Assembly: GCA_022824495.1 (NCBI GenBank)
Contig: JAJDZU010000009.1
Span: forward strand, 124,001-188,000
From: Chloroflexota bacterium
Lineage (GTDB): Bacteria > Chloroflexota > UBA11872
Reading direction: 5' to 3'
Length of the DNA: 64,000 nt
Part shown: positions 11,561-56,460 of the stretch, one piece after another
Layout of the letters: the number at the start of each line of letters is the position of its first letter
How positions within the stretch are numbered: the stretch's first letter is position 1
Position numbers and translations under genes: made by a program
The notes under the pieces: generated by a model
Seen by the model: the letters and a program-made list of their open reading frames with translations, nothing else
Told to the model about the DNA's origin: nothing
Databases searched by the model: none

Positions 11561-12289
11561 TCAGCGGCTTTTCCAGTCCAGGTCGATGTCGGGCAGCATC
11601 GGCAGCTCCTGCATGAACCGGTAGAAGCGACCGGTCGGGCCACCGTCCGGCAGCGAGGCCAGCCAGACGGCCGTCGGCACGGCCTCGGAGGGCGGTACGT
11701 CCGAGGTCGGGTTCATGTCGGTCTTGACCGAGCCGGGGCTCATGGCGTTAACCAGCACGTTCGACGCCTGGACCTCCTTGGCCATCGAGATCGTCAGCGC
11801 GTTGACGGCGGCCTTGGAGGCGGCGTAGGCGGACTCGCCCGGGTTGCACATGATGGCGGCGCCTGACGAGACGTTGACGATGCGGCCGTATCCGGCTGCG
11901 GCCATGTGCGGCAGCGCGGCGTGGCAGCAGGCAAAGAGGCCGATGAGGTTTACGGCCTGAACCCCGGCAAATGCTTCCGGCGAGACGTCGGCAACATGCC
12001 CGCGGGCGTTGCTGATGCCGGCGTTGTTGCACAGGACATCGAGCCGGCCGTGGCGGGCGACTACCCCGTCGATCACTTGCTGCACCGCGGCCGAGTCACT
12101 GACGTCTAGCCGCACGATGTCCGACGATCCGGACAGGTCATCGATCTCGGCAGCGACGGCCGTCAGCCGTGCTTCGTCGCGCGCGGCCAGGATGACGTGC
12201 GCCCCGGCGCGCGCGTAGCCAAGCGCGATTTCGCGTCCGATTCCGCGACTGGCGCCGGTGACCATTGCGATTCGACCAGCAAGACTCAT
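11561..12289 (-). CDS. Short-chain dehydrogenase/reductase
   Basis: 242 residues of a classical SDR. Cofactor loop TGASRGIG at 11-18, NNAG at 88-91, catalytic Ser near 142 and YxxxK with Y155 and K159, all intact. The first residues favour NAD(P)-dependent oxidation of an alcohol group on a small metabolite; the substrate is not predictable. The frame continues upstream to 12340, but ATG 12289 follows AAGGACGG at proper distance and starts the first strand. Last gene of the minus-strand run from 18253; 91 bases separate it from the small lipoprotein gene. Confidence 0.93.
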   Translation of the reverse strand: MSLAGRIAMVTGASRGIGREIALGYARAGAHVILAARDEARLTAVAAEIDDLSGSSDIVRLDVSDSAAVQQVIDGVVARHGRLDVLCNNAGISNARGHVADVSPEAFAGVQAVNLIGLFACCHAALPHMAAAGYGRIVNVSSGAAIMCNPGESAYAASKAAVNALTISMAKEVQASNVLVNAMSPGSVKTDMNPTSDVPPSEAVPTAVWLASLPDGGPTGRFYRFMQELPMLPDIDLDWKSR

Positions 12290-12380
12290 ACGGACCGTCC
12301 TTTCGGCTCCCAGAACAATGTCAACGAATGCACGGCCCAACAGCCGGCCGCGGGAGTAGCGTTAACCGCGGATTCCGGTT

Positions 12381-12717: not shown

Positions 12718-14334
12718 CTATTGAACCTGCAGCGGCCTCCGGCATTTCACCGGCACGTCGATGAGCGAGGGGCGGTCGAGTTCGAGCGCGTCGCGGAGCG
12801 TGGCCTCCAGCGTTTCGGGTGTGGCTCGCAGGCCGACGGCGCCGAAGGACTCGGCGAACTTCACGAAGTCGGGGTTCCTGAGGTTGACCTCGTAGTCGTT
12901 GTCGTAGTCGCGCAGGAAGTCTTCCTTGATTGCGCCGTAGGCGTTGTCATTCAGGATCACGACCGGCACGTTGAGTCCCTGCTGAACGGCCGTCGACATC
13001 TCTTGCGCCGTAAAGAGAAAGCCTCCATCGCCGGTCAGCGCAATCACGGGCTTGTCGGGCGCAACGATCTTGGCACCGAGCGCGACGGGATACGAGTATC
13101 CGAGCGTTCCGAATGCAAGGCCGTAGAGCCACGTACGCGGCTCGTAGAAGGGAAGGTGTTCGCGGCTCCAATACCCGAGCAAGTGCGGATCGCTGGCCAC
13201 GATGGTGTCGCGCGGCAAGGCGTTCCGAATGGCCTTCATGAGGCCCCATTCGAGTGGAGCGCGCTGCGCCAGCTCGGCGCGAACTTCGTCGCGCGCTGCA
13301 CGACCGGCGTCGACCCACTCGTCGCGGTCGACCTCCGGTGCGTCGGCCGTGGCTTCGACCAGTGCCGCCAACCCGGCCTTCGCATCCGCATGCACGCCGA
13401 TCTCGGCGGGAAAGTTCTTGCCAGGCTGGGTGGGGTCGATGTCGATGTGCAGCAATCGCTTCGGCACCGGCAGCGTCCAGCGACCGCTGGAGAGGTACGA
13501 GAACCGAGCGCCCACGGCGAGCATGACGTCCGCCTGCTCCATGAAGCGGCGAATCGGGCCATGCTGGTTCAGGTTGCCGACGACGAGCGGATGATCCTCG
13601 GGCATCGCGCCCTTGCTGGTGGTGGTGAGCATGACGGGAATGTCCAGCGACTCCGAAAGGGTTCGGAGTTCATCCCAGGCGCCCGACATCATCACGCCGC
13701 CGCCGGCCCAGATGAGCGGGCGCTCGGCGGCGGCGAGAATGGACGCCATGCGCTCCAGGTCGGTGGCATCGCCCTGCGGCGGCTGATGCGTCTCCTCCTG
13801 GAGCAACTCCACCTCGCCTTCGCCCTGGAAGACATCAACCGGGACTTCGACGACCACAGGCCGCGGGCGGTTGACGTGCATGCGGCGCAGACCCTCGTGG
13901 ATGGCGCCCGGAATCTCGCCCGGCGACATGGCCTGGCGGCTCCACTGGCTCAGACGGCTGAATACGCCGAACTGGTCCTTGCTTTCATGGACGATGCCCT
14001 TGTCCTGGTAGAGGTACGCGGACATGTCCTCGGCCATGATGTTCAGCAACGGGATGCCGTCGCCGTAGGCCTCGCCCATGGGGGTGGCGGCATTGAGCGC
14101 TCCAGGGCCAGCCGTGCTCAGAATCGTGGCTGGCTTGCCGGTCACGCGCGCCGCGCCGATAGCCATGTAGCCGGCGCCCTGTTCATGCCGCACCAGCACG
14201 TGGCGAACCTTGTCCTGCCGCATCAGCCGGCCGTACAGGTGCTCGCTGTGATAGCCGGGAATGCCGAACACGAGGTCAATGCCCTCGGCGATCAAACTCT
14301 GGACCACGGCGTCGGAGCCGGTCATCACTGCCAT
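12718..14334 (-). CDS. Thiamine-pyrophosphate enzyme, acetolactate-synthase-like
   Basis: 538 residues with the three-domain order of the acetolactate synthase/benzoylformate decarboxylase family. The activating glutamate is E51 (RHEQGAG), and the TPP-magnesium motif runs from GDGG (435-438) to N462-N464. Family members decarboxylate or ligate 2-oxoacids. The usual FAD-domain features of acetolactate synthase are weak and there is no regulatory subunit gene nearby, so I do not call it IlvB; a sulfo- or phosphonopyruvate-type, oxalyl-CoA-type or glyoxylate carboligase-type role is equally open. It starts 61 bases after the MurJ gene on the same strand. No membrane segment or signal. Confidence 0.9.
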   Translation of the reverse strand: MAVMTGSDAVVQSLIAEGIDLVFGIPGYHSEHLYGRLMRQDKVRHVLVRHEQGAGYMAIGAARVTGKPATILSTAGPGALNAATPMGEAYGDGIPLLNIMAEDMSAYLYQDKGIVHESKDQFGVFSRLSQWSRQAMSPGEIPGAIHEGLRRMHVNRPRPVVVEVPVDVFQGEGEVELLQEETHQPPQGDATDLERMASILAAAERPLIWAGGGVMMSGAWDELRTLSESLDIPVMLTTTSKGAMPEDHPLVVGNLNQHGPIRRFMEQADVMLAVGARFSYLSSGRWTLPVPKRLLHIDIDPTQPGKNFPAEIGVHADAKAGLAALVEATADAPEVDRDEWVDAGRAARDEVRAELAQRAPLEWGLMKAIRNALPRDTIVASDPHLLGYWSREHLPFYEPRTWLYGLAFGTLGYSYPVALGAKIVAPDKPVIALTGDGGFLFTAQEMSTAVQQGLNVPVVILNDNAYGAIKEDFLRDYDNDYEVNLRNPDFVKFAESFGAVGLRATPETLEATLRDALELDRPSLIDVPVKCRRPLQVQ

Positions 14335-14395: not shown

Positions 14396-15976
14396 CTAGT
14401 TCGCCAGCCTCGTCCCGAGCCGACTCCGAAGCAGCCGTACCAGTCGCGGCACCTCCGGGACTCGCATTAGTGCGAGGGCGGCGACGTACACGATGGCAAT
14501 CCCGACGCCGCTCACAAATAGCACGCGCCAGCCAGCCATTCCCCCGGGTTCCAGCGTCACGGTTGACCACTCGCGCAAGAGCAGACCGACAGCGGCGGCC
14601 AGGCCGCCGGCCGCGATCACGCGAACGCCAAAGAACCAGAGTCCGGGGTCGCCGAATCCGCCGAGGCGACGCCACAGCAGCCAGCCCAGGACCGCGCCGT
14701 GCAGGCTGTTCTGGACCGAGTTGGCCGCGACCAGTCCGAAGACGCCGAAGGGCTCGACCAGCGCGAGCGCCACCACCAGGTAGGCCAGACCACCGCCGAC
14801 GCCTACGAGCACCGGCGTGAGGGTGTTGCGGGTGGCATAGAAGGCGGCGATGAAGACCTGGTCGAGAACGGTGAGGGGCAGCTGCACCGCATAGATAAGC
14901 AACGCGAGACCGGTCAGGTCCGTGGCCGCCGCGTCGAAGGCACCGCGTTCGTAGACCACGCGGATCACCGGCACGCTCAACGCGGTGAGTATGACGGTGA
15001 CCGGGACCATCAGGACGAATGCACTGCGCCCGGCGGTTACCAGCGCCGACTTGAACTCGTCGGCGTTGACCAGGTCGCGCGGATTCTCGGGTGCGCTGCG
15101 GGCCAGCACCGGCAGGAATGCCAGCGCGATGGCCGACCCGATCAGGCCCAGCGGGAACTGCTGGAGGCGGGTAGCGAAACGCATGATGGCCAGGCTGCCT
15201 TCGCCAGTGCGCGACGCAAGGTTGGTATCGACGATCACCAGCGCTTGCGCCACGACCAGACCGGCCGCAATGGGCAGGTACAGGCGAAGCGCGCGAGCGG
15301 TGTCGGGATTGCCTCGCCAGGCAGGCTTCGTAAGCCGCGCCCGGTCTCGAAGCAGCGCCGGAACCTGGACGACGAGATGGGCGCCCGCACCCGCCAGGTA
15401 GCCGACCGCCACCCCCACCGGTCCGACAACCGGCGTGAGCGCGAGCGCCAGGACGATGAGCGTTCCATTCAGCGTGGCGGGCGCAAACGACGGGCCGGCA
15501 AAGCGATCGCGGGCGTAGAGCCGCGCCGCCGTAACCGCCGATAGCCCGAGGAACAGAACCGCCGGCAAGGTGATCCGGGTCATGACCACCGCGAGGTCTC
15601 GCGTCGCCTGCGGCAAGCCGGGCGCGGCGGCGGCGACCAACGGTTCCGCCAGCAGCACGAGCACGACGGTTACCCCGACCAACGCCAGCCCGACGGACGA
15701 AATGAGCGTCGAGAAGGTGCGCGCCAGGCGGCGATCATCCGACGCCATTTCGCTGAACAGCGGGATCAGTACGCCGGAAATCGCGCCGCCGATCACGAGC
15801 TCATGGACGAGTTGCGGGATGCGCGTGGCCACCTCGAACGCGTCGGTTGCTCCCGAGGCGCCGAACAGGGCGGCAATGACGGGTTCGCGGATGAAGCCCA
15901 GGAGCCGGCTGAGGATGTTGCCGGCCGCGACCAGCGCGGCGGCCTGGGCCACCCGCCTGGCGGTCGCCGTGTTCAC
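14396..15976 (-). CDS. murJ: MurJ-family lipid flippase
   Basis: 526 residues, about 14 hydrophobic segments, with the MurJ opening (GNILSRLLGFIREPVIAALF begins near residue 19) and the charged cavity residues typical of the MOP superfamily member that flips lipid II across the membrane for peptidoglycan synthesis. Start is GTG, overlapping the stop of the adenylyltransferase gene by four bases (GTGA), so the two are translationally coupled. That tight link to heptose-nucleotide genes is unusual and could mean it flips a heptose-containing lipid-linked glycan instead of, or as well as, lipid II. The fold call is firm, the cargo is open. Confidence 0.9.
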   Translation of the reverse strand: MNTATARRVAQAAALVAAGNILSRLLGFIREPVIAALFGASGATDAFEVATRIPQLVHELVIGGAISGVLIPLFSEMASDDRRLARTFSTLISSVGLALVGVTVVLVLLAEPLVAAAAPGLPQATRDLAVVMTRITLPAVLFLGLSAVTAARLYARDRFAGPSFAPATLNGTLIVLALALTPVVGPVGVAVGYLAGAGAHLVVQVPALLRDRARLTKPAWRGNPDTARALRLYLPIAAGLVVAQALVIVDTNLASRTGEGSLAIMRFATRLQQFPLGLIGSAIALAFLPVLARSAPENPRDLVNADEFKSALVTAGRSAFVLMVPVTVILTALSVPVIRVVYERGAFDAAATDLTGLALLIYAVQLPLTVLDQVFIAAFYATRNTLTPVLVGVGGGLAYLVVALALVEPFGVFGLVAANSVQNSLHGAVLGWLLWRRLGGFGDPGLWFFGVRVIAAGGLAAAVGLLLREWSTVTLEPGGMAGWRVLFVSGVGIAIVYVAALALMRVPEVPRLVRLLRSRLGTRLAN

Positions 15977-16473
15977 GTCGTGCGGCGGCTCCGGGTGATC
16001 AACTCGCTGGAGGCGTGGCCGGGCGCGAGGGGCACGAAAACAGCCGGAATCCCAAGTCGCTGGAGCGTTGCCGTCTCTGGCAGCGTTCGACCTCCCACGG
16101 CCGGATCGTAGTCCGCTCCCTTGACATAAGAATGCGGTCGAAGCTGCTCGATGAGTCGATCCGCGGTCGTCTCGTCAAAGGGGGTCACGGCGGTGACCCA
16201 ACGCACGGCCCGGAGAACCGTCAGTCGATCCTGCAGCGGCATGAGGGGGCGGTCGGGTCCCTTCAGCTTGCGAACGCCCGCGTCGCTGTTGAGCCCCACG
16301 ACCAGCACGTCGCCCACGGCCGCGGCACCGCGGAGAAGGGCCGTGTGTCCAGGATGGATGAGGTCAAAGCACCCGTTGGTCAGCACGAGGCGCCGGCCGG
16401 CGGCGCGCGCCCGTGTACCCCAGTCCGCCAGATCGCCTGGCTGAATGACCTCGGCCTCAGGCGAAGAGTTCAC
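15973..16473 (-). CDS. D-glycero-beta-D-manno-heptose 1-phosphate adenylyltransferase
   Basis: 166 residues of a cytidylyltransferase-fold enzyme: NGCFDLIHPGH with HPGH at 40-43 binds the nucleotide, and SYVKGADYDP follows near residue 115. It corresponds to the C-terminal domain of HldE (RfaE domain II), which makes ADP-heptose from heptose-1-phosphate and ATP. GTG 16473 is chosen because GAGG lies five bases upstream and it overlaps the kinase stop by 17 bases; an upstream ATG at 16518 would overlap much more. The kinase domain is a separate gene just before it. Confidence 0.92.
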   Translation of the reverse strand: MNSSPEAEVIQPGDLADWGTRARAAGRRLVLTNGCFDLIHPGHTALLRGAAAVGDVLVVGLNSDAGVRKLKGPDRPLMPLQDRLTVLRAVRWVTAVTPFDETTADRLIEQLRPHSYVKGADYDPAVGGRTLPETATLQRLGIPAVFVPLAPGHASSELITRSRRTT

Positions 16474-17482
16474 GGGCCTCACGCACGATTTCTTCAGCCG
16501 ACACCACGGCCACGCCAAGCTGGCGAACGACGACTCGAGCGGCCAGGGAGGCGAGGACGGCCGCCTCTTGCGGCGTGGCTCCGCCGAGGATTGCGGCAGT
16601 CATGGTTGCGGCCACGGTGTCGCCAGCGCCGGTGGGGTCCGCTACCCGTCCCACAGCCGCCGCGGGGATAACATGCCGACCCGCTGCCCCGGCGTCCAGG
16701 ACCATTCCAGCGGCGCCCAGCGTAATCAGCACCGCTCCGACGCCTAATGAGGTGCGGAGTTCGTTGGCCGCGGCCAGCGCTTCGGCGGTGGAGTTGATTT
16801 CGCGGCCGAGTTCGGCTTCGGCCTCAGGCTGGTTCGGCGTGAGGAGTGTGGCTTCGCGGAACCGGTCCAGGCCGCCGTGCGCGTCAGCCGTGATCACCAG
16901 TCCGGCTGCGTGTGCGGCAGGCAATGCGGCGTCCAGAATGGACGCGTTGACCACACCGGTTTCGTAGTCGGAGAGCACCAGGGCGTCGGCCTTCATCAGC
17001 GCCGATTCCAGGTACGAAATCATCCGTCCAGCGGTCTCGTCCTTAACTCGCGACCGATCGACCGTGTCCACGCGCGCGATCATGCTTTGCGGGCGTTGGC
17101 GTTCGCCGCCCGCCCAAATCCTCAGCTTGACGGCCGTCGCGCGATCCGGATCGGTCAGCAGGCCTTCGGTACGGATCCCGCGGTCCTGGAGCTGGTCTCG
17201 CAGTTGGTCGGCCATGGCATCGGCGCCAACGACGCCAGCCACCGCTGTGTCGCAACCCAGGCTGCCCAGATTCGTAGCCACGTTGGTTGCGCCGCCAGGA
17301 ACCAGCAGACGCTCCTGCTGCTCGATTACGGGTAGGGGGGCCTCGCGAGACAGACGACGGGCGGCGCCGATGATGTGCTCGTCCACGAGCATGTCGCCGA
17401 GCACGATTACACGCTTGCCGGCGGCACGGTTGAGGATTTGGGCGGCGCGCTCGGAGCTTATGGTCGGGCCGGAGGCCCCCAT
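16457..17482 (-). CDS. D-glycero-beta-D-manno-heptose 7-phosphate kinase
   Basis: 341 residues of a PfkB-family sugar kinase: GGATNVA at 64-70 (substrate lid) and the catalytic DPTGAGD ending at D288. It matches the N-terminal half of HldE (RfaE domain I), which phosphorylates heptose-7-phosphate at C1. In many proteobacteria kinase and transferase are fused; here they are two overlapping genes. Its ATG directly follows the TAG of the TIM-barrel isomerase gene. No GmhA or GmhB gene is in the window, so the isomerase and phosphatase steps are made elsewhere or by unrelated enzymes. Confidence 0.92.
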   Translation of the reverse strand: MGASGPTISSERAAQILNRAAGKRVIVLGDMLVDEHIIGAARRLSREAPLPVIEQQERLLVPGGATNVATNLGSLGCDTAVAGVVGADAMADQLRDQLQDRGIRTEGLLTDPDRATAVKLRIWAGGERQRPQSMIARVDTVDRSRVKDETAGRMISYLESALMKADALVLSDYETGVVNASILDAALPAAHAAGLVITADAHGGLDRFREATLLTPNQPEAEAELGREINSTAEALAAANELRTSLGVGAVLITLGAAGMVLDAGAAGRHVIPAAAVGRVADPTGAGDTVAATMTAAILGGATPQEAAVLASLAARVVVRQLGVAVVSAEEIVREARELFA

Positions 17483-18253
17483 CTATGAGCCGCGCGCCGC
17501 ACGCAGGAACTCGGCGCATTGACGCAAGGCCTCGGCCGGGTCACCGCGCATGCGGCATTCCAAGGCTGTCGATCCGGTGTAGCCGATGTCGCGTAGCGCG
17601 GCGTAAACGGCGGCGAAGTCGAGCGAACCGGTGCCCGGATGCGATCGCTGGTTGTCGGCGAAGTGCACGTGCCCGATCCAGTCGCCGGCCGCACGAATGC
17701 TGGCGACGATGTTGTCTTCCTCGATGCTCATGTGGAATACGTCGGCCAGGACCTTCACGCGTGGGCTGCCAACGCGCCGGGCGATGGCGATTCCGTCAGC
17801 CAGGGTGTTGATCAGGTGCATTTCGTAACGGTTGAGCGGCTCGACCGTGATGGTGACGCCCGCGGACTCGGCGTGCGGGGCCAACTGTTCCAGGGCCCGA
17901 ACGTAACTATCCGCCTGGTCCTGCGCGACGATGCCGTCCGGAAGCGAGCCGCGTACAGGTACGGAAATAAGGGCCGTTACGCCCAGTTCGTGGCAGGCAT
18001 CGAGGGCTCTTCGGGTCTGGTCGATGCGGCGGCGCTGGGAGAATTCGTCCTCCACCAGGTCCAGGCCGCGACCGGCCGGACACATGCTCATCGCGGGGAT
18101 CCCGGCCGCTGCCAGGGCGTTGCGGTATTCCGCGACGTGATCGACCGCGTCGCTGTGGATTTCGATGGCCTCGAAGCCGGCCGCGGCCAGGCAGTCGATC
18201 CGCTCGGCGACCGAGTTTCCCGGAGCCAGTCGTACCTGCGCGGAGAGTTTCAT
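17483..18253 (-). CDS. Sugar-phosphate isomerase/epimerase (TIM barrel)
   Basis: 256 residues of the xylose-isomerase-like TIM-barrel family (AP endonuclease family 2). Metal-site residues are visible as VEPLN (Glu, near residue 139), DVFH (Asp and His, near 173-176), HVHFAD and ALECR (Glu near the end). Relatives interconvert keto and aldo sugars or epimerise them. It is the first gene of the unit with the heptose kinase (stop and start codons abut), so it may supply the heptose precursor, for example by isomerising sedoheptulose phosphate. That role is an inference; hydroxypyruvate isomerase-like activity is an alternative. Confidence 0.88.
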   Translation of the reverse strand: MKLSAQVRLAPGNSVAERIDCLAAAGFEAIEIHSDAVDHVAEYRNALAAAGIPAMSMCPAGRGLDLVEDEFSQRRRIDQTRRALDACHELGVTALISVPVRGSLPDGIVAQDQADSYVRALEQLAPHAESAGVTITVEPLNRYEMHLINTLADGIAIARRVGSPRVKVLADVFHMSIEEDNIVASIRAAGDWIGHVHFADNQRSHPGTGSLDFAAVYAALRDIGYTGSTALECRMRGDPAEALRQCAEFLRAARGS

Positions 18254-54596: not shown

Positions 54597-56183
54597 CTAG
54601 CCCTGTGGCTGCCGGTTGGAGACTTGCCTCGCGGCCGGGGGAAGGGACGGTGAGCCCGATTCCTGATCCACGCGCTCGATGACGATGCCCTGGTAGTAGT
54701 GCGTGAGGATCTGGTCGAACGAATAGCCGTTCTTGGCCAGACCCTGCGCGCCCCACTGGCTCATGCCAACCCCGTGACCGAAACCACGCCCGTTGACGAG
54801 GAGTCGGGCCGGAAGCTGGAACTCCACGACATCCAGCGTCCCCCGCACCAGCCGAACTTCCGCCGGCGCCTCGGCGAAGGCCAGGCTGCGGCGCCGCTGC
54901 TCCACCGAATATCCGTCGGCTTGCAGCGCCGCCACCCGGCGTGAGGTTGGGTTCAGCAGCACCAGGCGCTCGGCGGGCACGGTCCGAAACTCGGCGAACG
55001 CGCTTGGCAGACCAAGGGTGATTCGAATGGCGTCGCCAGACAGGGTCACCGCGCCTTGATCGCCTAGCAATTCCACCTCCGCGGGCTGCCCGCTCTGCGA
55101 GGTGCGGACCACGCGAACCTCGCCTAGTTCCCCGAGGACGCCGCCTGCGGTCTTGAGGTCGGCCAGCCGATGCAGCGGGATGGCGCGCGTCCAGCGGTAG
55201 CCCTCCGCCCCCCAACTGACGCTCAGGGCTTCCACGTCGCTTGGCGATGGCACCCCGCGCAGGTACGGCACGTCCCGCCCCCACACGTCCACCGCGCTGG
55301 TGGTGTGATCGCCCATGTTCGAGGCGTAATAGGCGGCGATCAGATCCCCTTCGTACATCGCGACCACGCCCGAGGTTTCTCGCACGGCCTGAATCGTCGA
55401 CGGGTGCTCGCTCGCGACGCCGCCGTAGGCCTGGCAAAACTGCGAATCGCAGATGTCATAGTCGGCCGAAGGGTCCACCTGCTGCAGGGCGTAGTTGCGC
55501 GCGGCCACGGCCTGCGCCTTGAGGGCTTCGACCTCCCAGCTCGGCGGAATCTCGGACCCCACGACCGACGCCAGGTAGTCGGCCAGCCTCAGCTCGTTCA
55601 CCACCTGCGGGTCACCTCCGCTGAAATCGACGCGAATGCGCCCGCGATAGGGACGGTCGTTGATGGTCGTGACGTCAGCAAGGTCGTGTGGCTGGACGTC
55701 GATCTGCTGCGGCAGCGGCGCCAGGATCCGACGGCCGATGTGCAGGCCCGCGCGCGGTGTGGCCAGGGCGAGAGCCACGCCGAACTCCGAACGCAGCACC
55801 CGGCGGTCGCGCTGCTCGCGGCCGTCCCAGCCATACGGGCCGATCAACAGCTGCCCGTCCGGCCGGGATCCATCCGGTGTGCGGACCGCCAGCGCGTCCA
55901 GTATCGGCGTTACTTCCAGGTCCGGAAGCCGCAGATAGCGCAAGGCCCAACCAACGTTCATCGCCGAGGGCTCGGACGACATGGGTAGCGAGTCCACCTG
56001 GACTGTTGCCGTTGTCGGCGGAACCAGCCGCAGCGCGCCCGGCGCCACCGTCAACTGCACCCGGATGGTCTCCGGAAGGATCGGGGCGGCGGCGGACGGA
56101 TGCGGGCCAAGAACGAAGACCGCCGCCAGTGCCAGCGCAACACAAACGGCCCGCCCGGCCTTCCAGCCGGACGGGCCGTTCAA
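54597..56183 (-). CDS. SpoIID/LytB-domain exported protein
   Basis: 528 residues from TTG 56183. A signal peptide or anchor follows (hydrophobic VCVALALAAVFVLG, near 13-26). The SpoIID domain contains YLASVVGSEIPPSW with the catalytic Glu, ALKAQAVAARNYAL, CQAYGG and the closing FGHGVGMSQWGAQGLA. SpoIID is a lytic transglycosylase that removes peptide-free glycan strands; stand-alone homologues occur in non-sporulating bacteria. The frame is open to 56324 inside tatA, but no canonical start follows the terminator-like hairpin, so TTG 56183 is the last option. Eight bases after the tatA stop. Confidence 0.9.
   Translation of the reverse strand: MNGPSGWKAGRAVCVALALAAVFVLGPHPSAAAPILPETIRVQLTVAPGALRLVPPTTATVQVDSLPMSSEPSAMNVGWALRYLRLPDLEVTPILDALAVRTPDGSRPDGQLLIGPYGWDGREQRDRRVLRSEFGVALALATPRAGLHIGRRILAPLPQQIDVQPHDLADVTTINDRPYRGRIRVDFSGGDPQVVNELRLADYLASVVGSEIPPSWEVEALKAQAVAARNYALQQVDPSADYDICDSQFCQAYGGVASEHPSTIQAVRETSGVVAMYEGDLIAAYYASNMGDHTTSAVDVWGRDVPYLRGVPSPSDVEALSVSWGAEGYRWTRAIPLHRLADLKTAGGVLGELGEVRVVRTSQSGQPAEVELLGDQGAVTLSGDAIRITLGLPSAFAEFRTVPAERLVLLNPTSRRVAALQADGYSVEQRRRSLAFAEAPAEVRLVRGTLDVVEFQLPARLLVNGRGFGHGVGMSQWGAQGLAKNGYSFDQILTHYYQGIVIERVDQESGSPSLPPAARQVSNRQPQG
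56145..56180 (-). terminator. Terminator-like hairpin after tatA, inside the SpoIID start
   Basis: In the transcript a 15-base-pair GC-rich stem (one G-U) with a six-base loop begins 11 bases after the tatA stop and is followed by a U-rich stretch (stem-end UU then UGUGUU). It covers codons 2-13 of the SpoIID gene, so it may stop transcription after tatA or hold down SpoIID translation. Confidence 0.6.
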
Positions 56184-56190
56184 CCAACGC

Positions 56191-56460
56191 TTAGTTGGTG
56201 GTTTCTTCCTTCTTCTTCGCTGGAGGCGCCTCGGCGTCGTCAGCGGAGGCCGTGGCGCCTTCGGCGCCAACGGCCGTCTCGTCGTCGTCGCCGTCACCTT
56301 CGCCTTCGCCCTCTTCGTCCTCATTGCGCGCTTCTTCGCGGAACTCGCGCACGCTGGTGCCGAGCGCCCGGCCGATGCCCGCGATCCGGCCAGCGCCGAA
56401 GACGGCGATGACGATAAGCAGAATGATGATCAACTCGAACGGTCCAACGTTGAAGGGCAT
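56191..56460 (-). CDS. tatA: Twin-arginine translocase subunit TatA
   Basis: 89 residues: short N-terminal tail, one membrane helix (about 8-24), the hinge FGAGRIAGIGRALG and an amphipathic helix, then an acidic Glu/Asp/Gly and Ala-rich C-tail as in TatA/TatE. It forms the export pore for folded twin-arginine proteins, of which several are encoded here (both sugar-binding proteins and both propeller lipoproteins). GAGGAGGG before ATG 56460. tatB/tatC are not in the window. Confidence 0.95.
   Translation of the reverse strand: MPFNVGPFELIIILLIVIAVFGAGRIAGIGRALGTSVREFREEARNEDEEGEGEGDGDDDETAVGAEGATASADDAEAPPAKKKEETTN

Follow-up and report, generated by a model that had tools for sequence, protein, structure and literature searches.

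Our analysis of a 64,000-nucleotide (nt) stretch of a Chloroflexota genome (contig JAJDZU010000009.1; the whole stretch is called the window here) reveals a minus-strand operon that couples genes for an RfaE-I/HldA-like kinase (RfaE1), an RfaE-II/HldC-like nucleotidyltransferase (RfaE2) and a MurJ-family flippase (MurJ-A), preceded by a gene for a triosephosphate isomerase (TIM)-barrel protein. The best-supported interpretation is that RfaE1-RfaE2-MurJ-A is an old and conserved module, which pairs divergent HldA/HldC-type enzymes with a MurJ-family flippase of its own. We give an even chance to the proposal that, in cells that lack lipopolysaccharide (LPS), this Chloroflexota module serves a lipid-linked glycan of the envelope. 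Gene content, coupling, conservation, paralogy, the absence of LpxC and the uncoupling from GmhA are established directly here.

All positions given are those of the window. A preliminary description of this DNA had listed four overlapping or abutting genes, and all four open reading frames (ORFs) are indeed present on the minus strand, with the Pfam families AP_endonuc_2, PfkB, CTP_transf_like and MurJ. The TIM-barrel gene (17483..18253), which is the first gene of the operon in the source genus, has its stop at 17483, directly abutting the ATG of the kinase gene (16457..17482) at 17482. The kinase gene overlaps the transferase gene (15973..16473) by about 17 nt. The transferase ORF is open to 16518, and its start is probably the GTG at 16473, which yields a protein of 166 amino acids, as in relatives L047 and L048. 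MurJ-A (14396..15976) starts with a GTG, in a 4-nt overlap with the transferase stop.

The published taxonomy contains a class UBA2235/UBA11872, and UBA11872 is known only from corals and sponges (PMC10608941). We infer that the bacterium is sponge-associated and belongs to this class; its relatives at genus and family level are Chloroflexota metagenome-assembled genomes with sponge-like isolate names, and one relative at class level is UBA2235. The source genome comprises 3.37 Mb in 25 contigs (93.5% complete, 3.4% contaminated), and gene absences reported for it rest on profile searches. The survey set for the class comprised 41 genomes, the source genome and 40 relatives, in which 32 class loci were read in detail by tblastn.

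Conservation of the operon and its flippase

The kinase gene was found in 36 of the 41 genomes, and the adjacency of RfaE1, RfaE2 and MurJ is kept in 27 of the 32 class loci, at about 36–96% identity and in four of the five families. The triad occupies every locus of families f1, f2, f3 and f5, with one additional gene between kinase and transferase at two f3 loci. A homologue scan of GTDB genomes, whose search patterns favour window-like sequences and whose figures refer to the matches listed, places the triad in further Chloroflexota as well, mostly Ktedonobacteria, among them the isolates Thermogemmatispora tikiterensis, Tengunoibacter tsumagoiensis, Ktedonosporobacter rubrisoli, Dictyobacter kobayashii, D. 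arantiisoli and Thermosporothrix hazakensis. In most of these isolates, a WecG/TagA-family gene directly precedes the triad (WecG-RfaE1-RfaE2-MurJ). Because it is kept in most class loci and in Ktedonobacteria, the gene arrangement is not due to chance; a chance coupling of the RfaE pair with MurJ is ruled out by conservation across two classes. The comparison of gene order in Chloroflexota that the preliminary description had proposed thus came out in favour of a conserved adjacency.

The MurJ of the window scores 312 bits against TIGR01695, over the equivalog cut-off of 235.6, and shares family and length with the MurJ/MVF lipid II flippase. The search for a second murJ, likewise proposed beforehand, located a separate copy on contig C25 of the source genome, which rules out the window MurJ as the sole MurJ of that genome. 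Exactly two MurJ genes are present in 22 of 23 class genomes, and three in the remaining one. In a maximum-likelihood tree of 53 MurJ sequences, built without an outgroup and with other Ktedonobacteria MurJs left out, a 100/100 split sets all RfaE-linked copies (clade A) apart from the unlinked ones; the RfaE-linked side includes the Ktedonobacteria copies and the unlinked f4 counterpart.

The key charged residues of MurJ in E. coli are R18, R24, D39, R52 and R270 (E. coli numbering). MurJ-A of the source genus keeps R18, R24, D39 and R270 and has histidine in place of R52, the second copy (MurJ-B) is without R52 and R270, and the RfaE-linked copies of Ktedonobacteria have lost further key residues, namely R18 and D39 in nine of nine and R270 in most. 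The four residues kept by MurJ-A, together with its passing of the equivalog cut-off, would suit an ordinary lipid II flippase whose RfaE neighbourhood is merely a housekeeping envelope cluster with no special coupling. We consider this explanation unlikely, as it is opposed by the presence of a further MurJ in each of the class genomes examined, by the residue losses in Ktedonobacteria and by the MurJ-RfaE linkage kept across two classes. Unlike the known lipid II flippase, the window MurJ is one of two paralogs, is operon-linked to sugar-activating enzymes and has R52 replaced.

The RfaE-type kinase and transferase

Both RfaE proteins are clearly homologous to HldA and HldC yet fall under the equivalog thresholds, because the kinase scores 263 bits against TIGR02198 (curated cut-off 345) and the transferase 142 bits against TIGR02199 (curated cut-off 181.5); a Ktedonobacteria homologue of the kinase scores 314 bits against TIGR02198. 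The solved relative of the kinase is 4e84, BcHldA of Burkholderia (E 8e-34). An AlphaFold model of the kinase has a predicted local distance difference test score (pLDDT) of 89, and a Foldseek search with this model returns BcHldA chains as the top seven matches (E about 1e-30), followed by a ribokinase (1e-21). In fold and family, and in having its own separate gene, the window kinase is like HldA of the adenosine diphosphate (ADP)-heptose pathway.

The two differ, however, in a pair of motifs. Specifically, BcHldA has SDYAKG and DPKG where the window kinase has SDYETG and DAHG, and SDYExG-like and D[AS]HG motifs take the place of the former class-wide. The lysines of SDYxK and DPK, present in canonical HldA and HldE, are both absent from the window kinase. 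In a tree of 86 homologues, drawn from the matches listed, one branch (100/99) separates two kinase types. Among these matches, the type with SDYExG and VD[AS]H/Q is from Chloroflexota and Cyanobacteria/Melainabacteria, while the lysine type (SDYxKG, DPK) is from Acidobacteria, Omnitrophota, Zixibacteria, relatives of Geobacter and others, which are LPS-bearing phyla; the lysine type is incompletely sampled, because the search patterns favour window-like sequences and only matches listed were used, and five rows with neither motif pattern were left unlabelled. The sole Chloroflexota kinase that adjoins a GmhA gene among the matches listed (Dehalococcoidia, L170) lies on the lysine side of the tree. 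Among the matches listed, window-like kinases form a distinct, derived Chloroflexota/Cyanobacteria type, uncoupled from GmhA and, in the source genome, from GmhB, and this is a new finding.

Two further observations concern the kinase. Three Vampirovibrio relatives (L140, L143 and L158) carry a kinase of the Chloroflexota/Cyanobacteria type near a GT9 gene, with no recognisable GmhA nearby. Between the window and three same-genus relatives (L041–L043), the kinase is about 80% identical, and the TIM barrel, the transferase, MurJ and a downstream thiamine diphosphate (ThDP) enzyme are about 88–96% identical; the window kinase has either evolved faster than its operon neighbours or been replaced.

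The solved relative of the transferase is 5x9q (E 2e-24), which we take to be HldC of Burkholderia pseudomallei (BpHldC). The window transferase shares with this enzyme of the ADP-heptose pathway the fold, the family, several conserved motifs and the status of a separate gene. The substrate motifs of BpHldC are TNG, NSD, KG, EXTP and KGG (PMC7993394); TNG, NSD and KG are retained in the window transferase, EXTP is EXTA, and KGG is KGA in transferases of its own family and KGG in others. The STTR5 motif (F/L)XXGRSTT, a mark of enzymes promiscuous for nucleoside triphosphates (PMC11573728), is not in the window transferase, whose C-terminal motif there is LAPGHASS; a near match (GRSTS) occurs in the sister genus and in some f3 members.

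GmhA-like proteins, the TIM barrel and the activated sugar

The preliminary description held GmhA to be absent. This is correct within the window and not genome-wide, since contig C3 of the source genome encodes one GmhA-like SIS protein. A gmhA elsewhere would, by the preliminary description, refute its reading, but the gene on C3 is a weak case of one, with 85 bits where the cut-off is 209 and a non-canonical site, in which the active-site positions read H-D-E-H instead of the canonical H-E-Q-H. The latter refers to what we take to be the sequence of E. coli GmhA, in agreement with the aligned solved homologues. On C3 (L036:9850-12609), the GmhA-like gene is followed by an HddA-like GHMP kinase gene and an NAD-epimerase gene; the GmhA-like and HddA-like genes are adjacent in 13 of 13 genomes of the genus, and their best NCBIfam matches are phosphoheptose isomerase and HddA. 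Nine NAD-epimerases are encoded in the source genome, the best with 100 bits against the HldD cut-off of 275, a score that does not separate HldD.

Given this invariant adjacency and these NCBIfam matches, the C3 pair might supply heptose phosphate and the window pair complete a hybrid ADP-heptose route in the genus. The low score and altered site of the GmhA-like protein weigh on the other side, as does the resemblance of the C3 pair to the start of a separate guanosine diphosphate (GDP)-heptose-type route; furthermore, other genera keep RfaE1 and RfaE2 without the C3 pair. We regard the hybrid route as quite improbable. The source genome has a GmhA-like/HddA-like pair in common with the known GDP-heptose route to S-layer glycans and capsules (GmhA-HddA-GmhB-HddC), but that route has another kinase family at another locus, whereas the window operon has an RfaE-type kinase.

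The RfaE pair and GmhA are not coupled within the class. Of 17 largely complete genomes that have the pair (g2, f2, f4 and f5), 16 yielded no SIS_2 protein at E 1e-5 and one gave a single weak hit; three genomes (G024, G036 and G040) have GmhA-like genes and no RfaE1. The Ktedonobacteria have 3–7 SIS_2 proteins each, several of which, being encoded beside hydrogenase-maturation-like genes, are unlikely to be GmhA, and one of which (L205) is canonical-looking. At L190, L191, L207, L208 and L213, SIS_2-domain genes lie beside a small HypC-like and a larger HypD-like gene.

The TIM-barrel protein scores 158 bits against Pfam AP_endonuc_2. Its best solved relatives are a 3-keto-D-glucoside 4-epimerase (6wn6) and TM0416 (2zvr), and its solved relatives include D-psicose 3-epimerase. 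The metal-ligand-type residues E138, D171, H197 and E232 are invariant in six homologues and align with those of 2zvr. Keto-sugar epimerases act on non-phosphorylated sugars. The preliminary description had raised the possibility that the TIM barrel stands in for GmhA as an unrelated enzyme, converting sedoheptulose 7-phosphate to heptose 7-phosphate. In favour of this, its gene abuts the kinase gene in the source genus and adjoins it at two of the four loci of sister family f2, and its metal-ligand-type residues are intact. This reading is nevertheless disfavoured, because 15 of the 16 genomes with an RfaE pair and without SIS_2 proteins have no TIM barrel at the RfaE locus (unlinked copies were not searched); it is also present in a genus with a GmhA-like protein, and its solved relatives are keto-sugar epimerases. 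A replacement of GmhA by the TIM barrel is thus very improbable, and the TIM barrel is probably something else. Confined at the RfaE locus to the source genus and the two f2 loci, it would be a lineage-specific, D-tagatose 3-epimerase-like keto-sugar epimerase or isomerase, a passenger or accessory and not class-conserved. It matches the D-tagatose/D-psicose 3-epimerase and 3-keto-glucoside 4-epimerase family by sequence and metal-ligand-type residues, and unlike these relatives it sits, in the source genus, in an envelope-type operon.

The activated sugar may be heptose, in which case its synthesis would follow a route that has gone unrecognised, or it may be a different sugar. In the latter case, the same glycan-flippase module would handle a non-heptose sugar, with the kinase acting at C1 of a non- or differently phosphorylated sugar, GmhA and GmhB unneeded, and RfaE2 making a different nucleotide sugar. 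This explanation is possible, though we would stop short of calling it probable. It is favoured by the 100/99 branch that parts kinases of LPS-bearing phyla from the Chloroflexota/Cyanobacteria type, by the position of the GmhA-adjoining L170 kinase on the canonical side, by the near-complete lack of SIS_2 proteins in RfaE-pair genomes and of any GmhB-type hit in the source genome, and by the cyanobacteria, whose LPS lacks heptose (PMC4515613) and which, with their relatives, nonetheless carry this kinase type among the matches listed. It is disfavoured by the universal presence in the class of GT9, the heptosyltransferase family, and by the BpHldC motifs kept in RfaE2; moreover, 7-phosphate binding by the lost lysines is putative, and the missing steps could fall to an isomerase or a phosphatase that has gone unrecognised. 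Tentatively, the Chloroflexota/Cyanobacteria-type kinase and the transferase could constitute a separate, GmhA/GmhB-free nucleotide-sugar pathway feeding a polyprenyl-linked surface glycan for which a dedicated MurJ paralog is the flippase. This would amount to an envelope pathway of LPS-free bacteria that has not been described before.

Glycan context and neighbouring genes

The phylum Chloroflexota has been described as devoid of LPS (PMC8871954). Consistent with this, and with the earlier supposition that the organism lacks LPS, LpxC was found in 0 of 31 genomes (Gram-negative controls were positive), and there is no lipid A pathway. The known HldA and HldC belong to the ADP-heptose pathway, whereas the window pair occurs without canonical GmhA and GmhB or lipid A and is coupled to a flippase.

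The proposed check for heptosyltransferases yielded GT9-family genes in 41 of 41 genomes, usually two, as in the source genome. GT9 lies beside the RfaE pair in family f3, and the order in f4 is GT4-WecG-PfkB-RfaE1-RfaE2. Contig C12 of the source genome carries GT9 beside WecG and a PfkB kinase gene, a pair that in f4 stands ahead of RfaE1. MraY/WecA-family polyprenyl-phosphate sugar transferases are encoded in 31 of 31 genomes. The idea that the flippase moves a lipid-linked glycan, already put forward in the preliminary description, fits the GT9 genes and the neighbouring WecG and GT4 genes. Synthesis of enterobacterial common antigen and of teichoic acid linkage units (WecA-WecG/TagA type) likewise involves a WecG/TagA-family gene, as found in the Ktedonobacteria and f4 operons; those systems use Wzx or an ATP-binding cassette exporter, whereas the Chloroflexota operons combine WecG with the RfaE pair and MurJ.

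The following scheme for the proposed glycan module draws, for every reaction and for the glycan itself, on protein family and gene neighbourhood. The kinase would phosphorylate a heptose or heptose-like sugar at C1, and RfaE2 would convert the sugar-1-phosphate to a nucleotide sugar. An MraY/WecA-type enzyme and a WecG/TagA-type transferase may begin a polyprenyl-diphosphate-linked glycan, to which GT9 and/or GT4, whose genes adjoin the RfaE pair in some families and lie apart from it in the source genome, would add the activated sugar. Finally, MurJ-A, distinct from the second MurJ, is predicted to flip the product outward.

Several points weigh against this glycan module. The five f4 loci read RfaE1-RfaE2-ndk, with MurJ not adjacent and an A-clade MurJ elsewhere in the genome. 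GT9, universal in the class, also occurs in genomes without RfaE1. Heptose is not assured, because the kinase is without the two canonical lysines, and neither canonical GmhA nor a GmhB-type HAD phosphatase was found by profile search in the 93.5% complete source genome (the best HAD-IIIA match is partial, with 23 bits). In addition to the missing outgroup of the MurJ tree, MurJ-A might itself be the lipid II flippase, because it keeps the four charged residues and MurJ-B is without R270.

Enzymes for nucleoside diphosphate (NDP)-heptose are already known outside LPS bacteria (PMC11573728), so LPS-free heptose as a general idea is not new; no description of the operon with its flippase, of the distinct kinase type or of the uncoupling from GmhA was found in a non-exhaustive literature search. 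Little is understood of Chloroflexota envelopes, and the sampled genomes of this LPS-devoid phylum nonetheless retain heptose-type enzymes and GT9. Since the RfaE1-RfaE2-MurJ operon is shared with culturable Ktedonobacteria, the missing glycan is chemically testable. The residue split between kinase types suggests that the database label of LPS heptose enzymes may be wrong for such genes in Chloroflexota and Cyanobacteria. If heptose is made, sponge symbionts of this kind might be producers of NDP-heptose, which is known as an ALPK1 agonist (PMC11573728).

Upstream of the operon, genes for an M16 peptidase and a tetratricopeptide-repeat protein are divergent. Downstream, 61 bp from MurJ and on the same strand, an acetolactate synthase-like ThDP enzyme is encoded at 12718..14334 (Pfam TPP_enzyme N, M and C); it is kept beside MurJ in the source genus and sister genus only (family f1), at 73–97% identity, and probably belongs to separate metabolism. 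A short-chain dehydrogenase/reductase (SDR) oxidoreductase, a weakly conserved neighbour, lies further downstream on the minus strand (11561..12340). Elsewhere in the window, a SpoIID-domain protein is encoded at 54597-56324, in a Chloroflexota genome without known sporulation.

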